Shown here in pieces: positions 45 through 52,628 of a DNA stretch of 64,000 bases. The stretch lies in contig JALJPB010000012.1 of NCBI GenBank assembly GCA_022969175.1, forward strand, positions 1 through 64,000. The letters run 5' to 3'. A model generated the notes under the pieces. The model searched no databases. It was not told the DNA's origin and worked only from the letters and a program-made list of their open reading frames with translations. A program made the position numbers and the translations under genes. Source of the DNA: Colwellia sp. Lineage in GTDB: Bacteria > Pseudomonadota > Gammaproteobacteria > Enterobacterales > Alteromonadaceae. How positions within the stretch are numbered: the first letter of the stretch is position 1; the number at the start of each line of letters is the position of its first letter.

Positions 45-47
45 AAT

Positions 48-481
48 AAGTGAGCTGACACTATAAGCCGGGTTTTGTATCTCTTCCGAAGAAGAGTGAC
101 AATCATTCGTCTAGGCCTTAAATCGCTCTAAGGCTCAAGCAACCTACCCGGTTTCCACGCGAACCACGCTTATACTTTTTAAACTTACGTTCAAATAGTC
201 ATGAAACCCTATTTGGTCTTGCTCCGGGTGGAGTTTACCCTGCAATTACTGTTACCAGTAATCCGGTGCGCTCTTACCGCACCCTTTCAGCCTTACCTGT
301 GAAATTTCCGAAGAAACAACCATCGGCGGTCTTCTCTCTGCTGCACTTGTCGTCGGCTTGCGCCGCCCAGGCGTTACCTGGCACCCTGCTCATTGGAGCC
401 CGGACTTTCCTCCCCTCTATCCGTATACCTTTGGTTTGCACCTCAGATACTAAGATAAAGCAGCGATTGTCTGGTCAACTC
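48..481 (-). ncRNA. rnpB: RNase P RNA (M1 RNA, bacterial type A)
   Basis: This is the catalytic RNA of RNase P, which matures tRNA 5' ends. Read on the minus strand it carries the conserved blocks of type A RNase P RNA: GAGGAAAGTCCGGGCTCC near the 5' end, GGTGCGGTAAGAGCGCACC, GGTAAACTCCACCCGGAGCA, and the 3' portion ending in ACCCGGCTTATAG. The 5' GAGTTGAC (from 481) pairs with the 3' GTCAGCTC (59-52) to form helix P1, which sets the ends to within a few bases and gives a length near 430 nt, somewhat longer than the E. coli RNA (377 nt). It has its own promoter and terminator. A broken second copy lies at about 5336-5574. Confidence 0.97.
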
Positions 482-488
482 GGGGCGC

Positions 489-48820: not shown

Positions 48821-49903
48821 ATGTTTAACAAAACTAAATTACTATTGGTCACTGGTTTATTAACCTTGGCTGGTACCGCCAACGCCGATTATGAATTTAA
48901 AATTTCAGATGAAGATACAATAACTTTTGGTGGCTACGTTAAAGTCGATACCAGATATGTAAGTGGTAATATTCAAGCGACTGATTACTGGTATGGTAGT
49001 GGAACTGTACTGGCTGAGGATGCTTCAAATTTCGGTATTGCTGTCAATGAATCACGATTAACGACAAAATACGTTCATGGTGATGTTACCGCATATATTG
49101 GTATGGATTTTTATGGCGGTGCAGTAAATGGTGGCGGTAATGAAGTCATCTCAAACTCATCGAATTTACGTTTACGACAAGCCTTCATAAAATATAAAGA
49201 CGTATTAGTAGGTCAAGCATGGACAACGTTTCAAAACACCAGTGCCTTAGCTGAGGCCGCAGATTTTGCAGGTCCTTTAGTTGCTTCTGCTTTCATTCGT
49301 CAAGGTCAAATTCGCTATACCATGGGCAATTTACAAGTATCCATTGAAAATCCAGAAACCTATGGTGGCAATAGACCTTCGGCAGGTGTACGTGATGATA
49401 ACGTACCTGACTTCATTGCTAAATATACTTTTAAAGGTGACTGGGGCAATGTTTCTGTTTCTGGTTTAGCTCGCCAATTACAATCATTAGAAGGAAATGC
49501 CGAATCTGCTTTTGGTTACGGTGTTGCTGGTCGTATTAACACGTTTGGCAAAGATGACTTTCGCTTCCAATTGCATGGCGGCAACGTAGGTCGCTATGTT
49601 GGCGTAACTGCATCTACAGATATGGTGGGTGAAGAAGTCGAAGACACCACCTCTATTATGTTCGCCTATCGCCACTTTTGGACTAAAGATCTGCGTAGCT
49701 CGGTATTTTATGGTAATACCACCACCGACTTAACCGATAGAGACCGCACACATTGGGGCGTAAATTTATTTAAGAACATCACTAAACATTTATCATATGG
49801 CATTGAAGTAGGTCAATTTGAAATGGCCAATGCTGATGATTTAAATGGTGGTGTTGGTGCTGATTCATTCTACGGTCAATTTTCTGTGAAATTCGCTATT
49901 TAA
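48821..49903 (+). CDS. DcaP-like outer-membrane porin
   Basis: A 360-residue outer-membrane barrel with a signal peptide (1-22, ending GTANA) and the strand FGGYVKVDTRYVSG typical of DcaP-family porins. LRLRQAFIKYKDVLVGQAWTTFQ is another family segment. The C-terminus YGQFSVKFAI has the aromatic/alternating pattern of a barrel end strand. DcaP porins pass small dicarboxylic and other organic acids; here the upstream motif links it to the actP locus. That link is inferred. Confidence 0.82.
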   Translation: MFNKTKLLLVTGLLTLAGTANADYEFKISDEDTITFGGYVKVDTRYVSGNIQATDYWYGSGTVLAEDASNFGIAVNESRLTTKYVHGDVTAYIGMDFYGGAVNGGGNEVISNSSNLRLRQAFIKYKDVLVGQAWTTFQNTSALAEAADFAGPLVASAFIRQGQIRYTMGNLQVSIENPETYGGNRPSAGVRDDNVPDFIAKYTFKGDWGNVSVSGLARQLQSLEGNAESAFGYGVAGRINTFGKDDFRFQLHGGNVGRYVGVTASTDMVGEEVEDTTSIMFAYRHFWTKDLRSSVFYGNTTTDLTDRDRTHWGVNLFKNITKHLSYGIEVGQFEMANADDLNGGVGADSFYGQFSVKFAI

Positions 49904-49945
49904 CTTTTTTACCTTACATCAGTTACCTCTGTTGAGGTTATTTTT

Positions 49946-49974
49946 GAGGGGAGCTTTTGCTTCCTCTTTTTATT
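49946..49974 (+). terminator. Terminator of the porin gene
   Basis: GAGGGGAGC...GCTTCCTC with a T5 tract lies 43 bp after the porin stop codon. A smaller hairpin CCTC-TGTT-GAGG precedes it. Confidence 0.65.
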
Positions 49975-49992
49975 AAACGGTTAATTTAAATT

Positions 49993-50020
49993 AAAAAAAA
50001 CCAGCTGCGCAAGCAGCTGG
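49993..50020 (-). terminator. Terminator of the putative Fur-regulated sRNA
   Basis: On the minus strand the 8-bp GC-rich stem CCAGCTGC/GCAGCTGG with a 4-nt loop is followed by eight Ts. It is 210 bp from the tex stop codon, and a promoter lies between. The TTAGCCAGC lead-in resembles that of the E. coli RyhB terminator. Confidence 0.85.
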
Positions 50021-50166
50021 CTAACCATCAAAAAGTTTCTCTTTAGTGTCGCTAGAAGAGAACATAACTCGCAACTTAGTTATTAAGCGTCCTGAGTCTT
50101 AATAGTTAAGTTGCGAATTACTATTATCACAATATTCTAGAGAGCAACCAGAGAAGTCGTGACAAC
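49993..50166 (-). ncRNA. Putative Fur-regulated small RNA (RyhB-like)
   Basis: A transcript of about 174 nt predicted on the minus strand between the porin and tex genes. It is bounded by a promoter overlapped by a Fur box (50172-50201) and by a strong intrinsic terminator (49993-50020). A long imperfect hairpin, TCGCAACTTA...TAAGTTGCGA (about 50069-50117), occupies the middle. Near the 5' end is CACGAC followed ten bases later by TTGCT and then TATT, a loose echo of the RyhB core. No open frame with a ribosome site is present. RyhB-type RNAs repress iron-using proteins under iron starvation. The identity is inferred. Confidence 0.65.
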
Positions 50167-50171
50167 AAGTA

Positions 50172-50201
50172 AATGATAATCATTCCTATTTAGATTGTCA
50201 A
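50172..50201 (-). promoter_or_regulatory. sigma-70 promoter overlapped by a Fur box
   Basis: Minus strand: -35 TTGACA (50201-50196), 17-bp spacer, -10 TATCAT (50178-50173). The palindrome AATGATAATCATT (plus strand 50172-50184) is the perfect 13-bp core of the Fur consensus and covers the -10 element, the classical position for Fur repression. Confidence 0.75.
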
Positions 50202-50228
50202 GCTTTAATTTATCTCAATACATAGCCT

Positions 50229-52628
50229 TTATTTCTTAAGCTTTGCAAATGCATTGGCAAAAGCATTACCCATAGCGGCATTACCTGAGTCTTTTGCTTT
50301 ATTAGTAGTTTTATTCGATTTTTTATGTGCTGGTTTAGTTTTATCATTCTTCTCACTAGCTACTTTAGCATTAGAGCTAGGGCTAGTCTTATTTTGGCTT
50401 CTAGGTGCTGGACTAGCATCGTCTAAACGCATCGTTAAGCTGATTCGTTTTCGCGCTGCGTCTACTTCAACAACTTTTACTTTGACAACATCACCGGCTT
50501 TTACAATTTCTCTAGGATCACTAACAAACTTGTTTGTTAGTGATGAGATATGTACTAAACCATCTTGATGAACACCAATATCAACAAAGGCACCAAAATT
50601 AGCGACATTGGAAATAACTCCTTCTAAAATCAAACCTACTGTTAAATCAGCAACCGTATTAATTCCCTCTTTAAAGGTAGCGGTTTTGAATTCAGGACGC
50701 GGATCGCGACTAGGTTTTTCTAATTCACTAATAATATCTTTGACCGTTAATTCACCAAAGCTAGTATTGTTAAGTTGATTGACAATTTCATTGCAATTAA
50801 TTTTATTTAGCTGCTCACTATTGCCAAGCAATGACTGGGTATCGAGGTTTAGTTGGGCAATAATAGCTTCGACCACAGGATAAGTTTCTGGATGAACACC
50901 AGATCGGTCTAAAGGATTTTTACCATCGATAATCCGTAAAAAACCTGCCGCTTGTTCAAAAGCTTTTGGCCCTAGTCGAGCGACTTTTTTTAATTCTTTT
51001 CGATCGTTAAAACGGCCATGTTCATCACGATAATTAACGACATTTTGTGCCATGGTTTTATTGAGCCCTGAAACTCGTGTTAACAAAGCAGCTGATGCGC
51101 TATTTAGATCTACACCCACGGCATTTACACAATCTTCGATGACATTATCAAGTGATTTGATTAATTGGCTCTGACTCACATCATGTTGATATTGGCCAAC
51201 ACCAATAGCTTTAGGATCAATTTTCACTAACTCCGCCAGTGGGTCTTGTAATCGACGAGCAATAGATACCGCACCTCTAATTGAAACATCTAAGTCAGGA
51301 AATTCATTGGCGGCAAATTCTGATGCTGAATAAACTGAGGCTCCAGCTTCACTGACAATAACTTTTGTTAACTTAATCGGCGTTTTATCTGGTGATTGTT
51401 CTGCAGACTTTGCTGCAAGAGCGACAATAACATCAGCAATAAGTTTGTCACTTTCTCTTGAGCCAGTGCCATTACCAATAGCGACTAATTCAACTTTATA
51501 TTGCTGAGATAAATTAACCAAAGTACGTACTGACTTCTCCCAATGATTTTGTGGAGCATGAGGAAAAATAGTTGCCGTTTGCAATAACTTGCCAGTACCA
51601 TCAACAATCGCTAATTTACAACCAGTACGCATACCAGGATCTAGCCCTAAGGTTGTTTTTGCGCCCGCTGGAGCCGCCATTAATAAATCACTTAAGTTAG
51701 TAGCAAATACTTTTATTGCTTCAACTTCGGCTTGCTCTCTGAGGTTACCTAATAAATCAGTTTCTAAAGATTGAGACAATTTAGCTTTCCAAGCACTACG
51801 AACGACTTTAGTTAAAAATTTAGCCCCTGCTTGTGAGCTTAATCGTAAATTATAATGTTCACTAATTATCTGCTCGGCACTTGAATAACCACTAGCTTCT
51901 TGCCCAGGATCAACATCAATAATTAACTTTAAAAAACCTTCGTTACGACCACGAAGCATCGCTAACATACGATGAGAAGGCACAGTTCTTAATTTTTCTG
52001 AGTGCTCAAAATAATCTTTAAACTTAACACCCTCTTGTTGCTTACCCTTAACCATTTTACTGGTGAGGTGAGCCTGTTTTAATAAATGTTTACGCAGTTT
52101 TTGTAATAAATTAGCGTCTTCAGCAAAACGCTCAATTAAAATGGCGAGTGCTCCTTCAAGTACTGATTTATCATCTTGGAAACCAGCGTCTTTATTAATA
52201 TAACTTTGTGCTTCATCCTCTGGCACTAATAACCAGTTCTGATAAAGCTTATTGGCCAATGGTTCTAAACCTGCTTCAATGGCAATTTGGCCTTTAGTTC
52301 TTCGTTTTGGCCGATAAGGCAGATATAAATCTTCTAATCGGGTTTTATTATCCGCTTGTTCAAGCTCTTTTTTTAAAGCCGGGGACAATTTACCCTGTTG
52401 TTCTATATTCGTTAAAATCAGTTGACGACGTTCGGTTAGCTCTCTTAAATAAGTCAAACGCTGAAACAGATGGCGTAAGTGATTATCATCTAAGCCCTTC
52501 GTTGCTTCTTTACGATAGCGCGCGATAAAAGGTACCGTAGCACCATCATCTAATAAGGTGATTGCCGAAGTTATCTGTGAAGTTTGTACTTTAAGTTCTT
52601 GAGCAATTTGCTCAGCGATTGAGATCAT
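50229..52628 (-). CDS. tex: Tex-family S1 RNA-binding transcription accessory protein
   Basis: A 799-residue Tex protein of typical length plus a basic C-terminal tail. It has the N-terminal helical region ([19 protein letters not shown]), the YqgF/RNase-H-like domain ([17 protein letters not shown]), a helix-hairpin-helix pair ([19 protein letters not shown]) and an S1 domain at about 650-725 ([25 protein letters not shown]). Tex binds nucleic acids and is linked to transcription/RNA homeostasis. The Lys/Ser-rich low-complexity tail after about 735 is common in Alteromonadales. Confidence 0.95.

Follow-up and report, generated by a model that had tools for sequence, protein, structure and literature searches.

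A putative Fur-controlled, iron-sparing small RNA gene downstream of tex in Colwellia and related bacteria

A non-coding transcription unit next to tex

The window, that is, the whole stretch of 64,000 nucleotides of Colwellia sp. DNA that was analysed, carries the gene tex on its minus strand (50229 to 52628). Downstream of tex, on the same strand, lies a short transcription unit whose -35 box begins 27 bp after the tex stop codon, with no terminator between the two. The -35 box TTGACA (50196 to 50201), of which TTGAC is kept in nearly all copies in the family, and the -10 box TATCAT (50173 to 50178) are separated by a 17-bp spacer, and together they give 11 of 12 possible matches. The 13-bp Fur core AATGATTATCATT (50184 to 50172) overlaps the -10 box. 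It matches the core exactly. No other position in the 64 kb comes within one mismatch of the core, and shuffled sequences lead one to expect 0.38 such sites. The perfect match is confined to this core; the full 19-bp Fur consensus finds no match within three mismatches.

The RNA would be about 174 nt long (174–175 nt; 49993 to 50166), with its 5′ end placed 7 nt past the -10 box, at the start of hairpin 1; for the relatives a length of 200–240 nt is predicted. Its fold has a predicted energy of -62.3 kcal/mol, against -37.6 ± 3.8 kcal/mol for shuffled sequences (z = -6.55; none of 200 shuffles equalled it), and no ORF of at least 20 amino acids overlaps the unit. In the predicted fold, hairpin 1 (50123 to 50166) forms the 5′ end, and its helix 1 shows compensatory changes in 5 of 8 pairs among the relatives. 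It presents the loop UUGCUCU (50141 to 50147), which with its flanking inner stem makes up the putative seed UGGUUGCUCUCUA (50138 to 50150). Hairpin 2 (50064 to 50121) has a long stem, with compensatory changes in 6 of the 14 pairs of helix 3, and carries loop 2, ACUCAGGACG (50088 to 50097). A conserved U-rich linker, UUUUUGAUGGUU (50023 to 50034), which is a likely Hfq site, precedes the intrinsic terminator (49993 to 50022), in which a GC stem of 10 pairs (50022 to 49999) runs into eight Ts (50000 to 49993). The promoter, the Fur core, the structured RNA devoid of a protein gene, and the terminator are thus all present as a preliminary description, made from the sequence alone, had read them.

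Two other features of the window may be mentioned. On the plus strand, 48821 to 49903 encodes a 360-residue outer-membrane-type protein, the “porin” of the preliminary description, for which there is no Pfam match at 1e-5. An RNase P RNA of class A (47 to 482, minus strand; 307 bits) is the window's only match above an Rfam gathering cut-off.

Conservation of the unit in related genomes

A BLAST search of 150 genomes of the family with the window copy returned mostly unrelated Fur boxes. In the Colwellia MAG L047, a homologous unit lies downstream of tex, and with that copy as query strong matches appeared, among 399 family genomes, in about 30 that all belong to the genus g40. In BLAST the family came to light only when the relative's copy served as the query. 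We infer that g40 is Colwellia, given that the copy in one of its genomes (G418) is identical to that of L047, and from its tex relatives. The g40 genomes contain one to four full units each, often head to tail and each with its own promoter, and six further genera of the sample (g1, g9, g27, g34, g42, and g48) have homologues. As for position, the unit is adjacent to tex in L047, L024, L154, L159, and L164.

A structural alignment of 18 copies is the basis of the two-hairpin consensus. This consensus has 26 pairs, with 97.2% of cells paired and two-sided changes at 11 of the 26; none of 500 shuffles scored as high on any measure, and all the slid controls were far lower. The covariance model built from it, R1, matches the window at 50065 to 50166 with 65 bits (E = 1.7e-10), the window copy being part of the training set. 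Diverged copies are matched in g42, g9, and g34 at 29–38 bits and in g48 at 35.7 bits; all four genera have a Fur core immediately upstream that deviates at no more than one position, and in g42 the unit adjoins tex. A weak R1 match in g29 (L166, 33 bits) has no Fur box on inspection and was left out of the counts. Beyond the family, R1 matched none of about 110 genomes sampled from the order, nor was a comparable unit seen by eye in the tex neighbourhoods of Pseudoalteromonas, Alteromonas, and Shewanella.

Covariance model matches show that promoter and Fur core accompany the unit nearly always in the relatives, and linker and terminator usually. Of the 49 distinct R1 matches, 42 are immediately preceded by a Fur core with no more than one mismatch; the others are mostly explained by an extended site with two mismatches, an internal duplicate module, a copy split by an insertion, or a contig end. 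The joint conservation of promoter, Fur core, and terminator, and the synteny of the unit, which the preliminary description had proposed as checks, were thus looked for and found. Since promoter, Fur core, and RNA recur jointly in relatives, chance is not the explanation. The locus is a conserved gene, and its assignment as a Fur-controlled small RNA gene is strongly supported by the conserved promoter and Fur core and by the covariation in the RNA.

The two loops are the single-stranded parts of the RNA that are conserved, to different extents. In hairpin 1, the loop sequence UGCUCUC is kept in g1, g27, and g40, while hairpin 2 has CAGGAC(G/A), of which GGAC is retained almost throughout and is the family's most widely kept loop sequence. 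Loop 1 of the window's genome, GGUUGCUCUCUAG, differs from the Colwellia loop 1, GAAUGCUCUCUCA, and another relative (G080) carries UUGCUCA. Four diverged members, L002 (G084), L165 (G254), L167 (G008), and L168 (G033), have another hairpin-1 loop and a recognisable hairpin 2; the loop ACUACUACU is found in three of them. In two genomes (G039 with L024 and L135, G078 with L134 and L157), duplication has placed two or three hairpin modules within one Fur-driven unit, so that the RNA would carry two or three CAGGAC loops. In L136 and L138 (G136 and G233), an insertion of about 200–270 bp, apparently a small mobile element, lies between hairpins 1 and 2.

Predicted targets

Complementarity of the loops was screened in start regions from -40 to +20, with ORFs called and starts chosen by a simple procedure, in samples of two genomes comprising 618 genes of Colwellia G110 and 786 genes of the window's genome; iron proteins were classed by our reading of NCBIfam family names. 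In the window's genome, fumA, which encodes the iron-sulfur class I fumarase, ranks first of the 786 start regions at -22.0 kcal/mol, and the next follows 4.6 kcal/mol behind at -17.4. Its site, UAGAGGGCAACCA, forms 13 consecutive pairs with the genome's own variant of loop 1; these pairs would extend over the ribosome site and end at the A of the start codon. Of 5000 shuffled loops, 1 does equally well. After correction for accessibility, applied to the 12 best matches, fumA stays first (-11.2 versus -7.6). The gene fumA had been picked beforehand from the Colwellia list; corrected for eight gene-by-loop tests, the probability that it ranks first by chance is about 0.01. In a comparison of genomes, GAG(A/G)GCA stands ahead of fumA in 10 of the 11 that have a UGCUCUC loop and in none of the 5 that lack it (Fisher 0.001, the Colwellia genomes being related to one another); the exception, G026, has the loop and lacks the site. 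We regard fumA as the best-supported predicted target in the window's genome.

In Colwellia G110, Edd, NadA, SodB, SdaA, the class I fumarase, NapA, a FadH-like Fe-S flavoenzyme, and SdhA are found among the 20 best of 618 matches to loop 1. Thus 8 of these 20 are iron or Fe-S enzymes or partner subunits of such enzymes; among 40 random genes, 1 is iron-related (Grx4; Fisher p = 0.0004). NqrM, a maturation protein of the Na+-NQR, is also among the 20 and was left out of the iron count. A reversed loop 1 in which the purine-binding stretch CUCUC was retained gave 2 of 20 iron-related genes (p = 0.03 versus the real loop). For loop 2, the best 20 comprise NadA, SdhB, AcnD, RlmN, and a 4Fe-4S domain protein (5 of 20, p = 0.013), and complementary sites are found in the start regions of nadA, acnD, rlmN, and sdhC. 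When Fe-S proteins were defined by motif, which left 9 and 7 proteins and hence too few, there was a weak trend in three of four tests (p ~0.07–0.10), with 0.75 in the fourth. In genomes G350 and G285, the nadA leader, GUGUCCUGAAUUAGAGAGA, holds a complement for each loop in an order that permits simultaneous pairing, and GGAGAGCA directly precedes the start of sodB in 5 of 6 Colwellia genomes, which are not phylogenetically independent. In Colwellia, the predicted targets form a wider set, namely sodB, fumA, edd, nadA, sdaA, napA, the gene of the FadH-like enzyme, and sdh genes.

A wide regulon is proposed here for Colwellia only, because, judged by eye among its 786 start regions, the window's genome has no evident Fe-S enrichment beyond fumA. 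There, sodB, edd, sdaA, and rlmN pair poorly with the RNA, and nadA was not found in the assembly, which is 85% complete. Codons 4–6 of sdhC read CGUCCUG (within AACGUCCUG) in 11 of 11 genomes, complementary to CAGGACG, with -12.2 kcal/mol in the window's genome; being coding sequence, this stretch may be conserved for reasons other than pairing.

Relation to known iron-sparing RNAs and proposed mode of action

The preliminary description had called the RNA RyhB-like and iron-sparing. What stands is a Fur-controlled gene with predicted pairing to iron-enzyme mRNAs; homology with RyhB is not supported. The Rfam RyhB model, RF00057, which had been named as a check, has no match at E ≤ 10 in window positions 49500 to 50700, and four homologous loci have no Rfam match at E ≤ 0.5. 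CACGAC, taken for a word of the RyhB core, belongs to one arm of a stem that the family has not conserved, and the lead into the terminator, TTAGCCAGC, taken for another likeness, is this copy's version of a variable stem that reads TTTAACCAG or TTTGCCAG in relatives. The caution that the resemblance in the core was weak and could be chance was well placed, for the words that recall RyhB are not kept by the other family members. The Pseudomonas PrrF model, RF00444, aligns along the whole length of the unit, from the -35 box to the terminator, with 25.5 bits (E = 0.079), against a gathering cut-off of 90 bits; membership is rejected on this score, the signal of which comes mostly from promoter, Fur core, and terminator. 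In 60 relatives the same model gave weak, scattered matches, none above the cut-off, and as control genomes match too, these are uninformative. Rfam holds no family corresponding to this RNA.

In its Fur control, its T-run terminator, and its predicted iron-enzyme targets, such as sodB, fumA, and sdh, the RNA is like RyhB, from which it is set apart by sequence, by gene neighbourhood, and by the two-loop architecture. PrrF1 and PrrF2 resemble it in their tandem copies, Fur control, and the weak whole-length alignment just described, and differ from it in their loops. Tandem ryhB copies are also on record, in one Shewanella (PMC2964681). The closest parallel by description is BrrF of Burkholderia, a Fur-regulated small RNA that is unlike RyhB in sequence and has among its targets fumA, acnA, sdhA/C, sodB, an Fe-S 2-methylisocitrate dehydratase, and probably edd (PMC7377471), nearly the set predicted here; BrrF has been tested experimentally and belongs to an unrelated lineage. 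Homology to RyhB, PrrF, or BrrF is not demonstrated, and the RNA probably works as they do.

Could the gene nevertheless be a true RyhB orthologue that has diverged, with an ancestor in common with the RyhBs of the enterobacteria, Vibrio, and Shewanella? The control logic and the target class are alike, and UUGCUC, which we take to be part of the RyhB core, is common to both (it recurs as UUGCUCA in G080), while by inspection the rest of the core differs. Set against this are the missing RF00057 match described above, the location downstream of tex rather than of VC0106 or SO4716, as is ryhB in Vibrio and Shewanella (PMC2964681), six outgroup tex loci, with Vibrio among the genera examined, that give no Rfam match, and the silence of R1 in the order outside the family. 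Common descent with RyhB is thus improbable.

We consider it quite improbable that the RNA is mainly a protein decoy, whose loop 2 would titrate CsrA in iron starvation with or without pairing by loop 1. Loop 2, with CAGGAC(G/A) on a long stem, resembles what we take to be the CAGGA(U/C/A)G motif of CsrB-type RNAs, its GGAC is the loop sequence most widely conserved across genera, and some copies have two or three such hairpins per transcript. Most copies, however, have one per RNA, far fewer than CsrB; loop 2 is complementary to the start regions of nadA, acnD, rlmN, and sdhC; the pairing evidence accounts for the data without CsrA; and no csrA gene turned up in the DNA sampled. Least plausible is that the unit serves only as a 3′-untranslated element or shared terminator of tex. 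The short, terminator-free interval behind tex would suit such a role, but the unit's own promoter, with its Fur core, is conserved alongside the RNA, and complete copies stand in tandem and at other loci.

We propose that the locus is, most probably, the gene of a Fur-repressed, trans-acting, iron-sparing small RNA of a Colwelliaceae-type family. The Fur site over a sigma-70 promoter is conserved with the RNA, which is non-coding and structured and ends in a terminator and U-tail, and its complementarity to start regions of iron-enzyme mRNAs exceeds chance, strongly for fumA here and more broadly in Colwellia. This complementarity, in the Colwellia relative and at fumA in the window's genome, supports a RyhB-like function. 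With sufficient iron, Fe-Fur, a protein encoded in the window's genome, would occupy the core at the -10 box and block transcription, as the position of the site and Fur biology suggest. When iron is low, the RNA would be made and would present its two apical loops, with Hfq presumably bound at the U-rich linker and tail; no hfq gene turned up in the contigs sampled. Pairing with the start regions of iron-enzyme mRNAs would then lead to a translation block or to decay, and iron would be spared.

Less securely, we raise a modular arrangement as one possibility for how the family evolved. Loop 2, with its GGAC, might be the older and widely kept part, possibly docking on sdhC codons 4–6, and loop 1 a fast-evolving seed retargeted between genera (UGCUCUC, UUGCUCA, ACUACUACU) with a matching change at fumA; in some Colwellia both loops might bind nadA mRNA side by side, and hairpin modules would have been duplicated within one transcript.

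Colwellia-type bacteria live in iron-poor seawater. RNAs of the RyhB type set the iron economy of the cell, and our search of open-access papers found none described for Colwellia. These bacteria thereby gain a defined candidate for an iron-sparing RNA, with a testable seed and target, in a family whose loop and target seem to vary in concert from genus to genus. It would be one more, apparently independent, origin of this regulatory solution, alongside RyhB, PrrF, and BrrF.

Other Fur-type boxes were noted in passing. In two relatives, such a box directly precedes a small TPR-like ORF (L015 in G008, L264 in G110). In the window's genome, a second good match (L041, G000:C155:3716-3761) lies upstream of an ORF that by eye is pseudoazurin-like; pseudoazurin is a copper electron carrier, and a Fur box there would be in keeping with a change from iron to copper.
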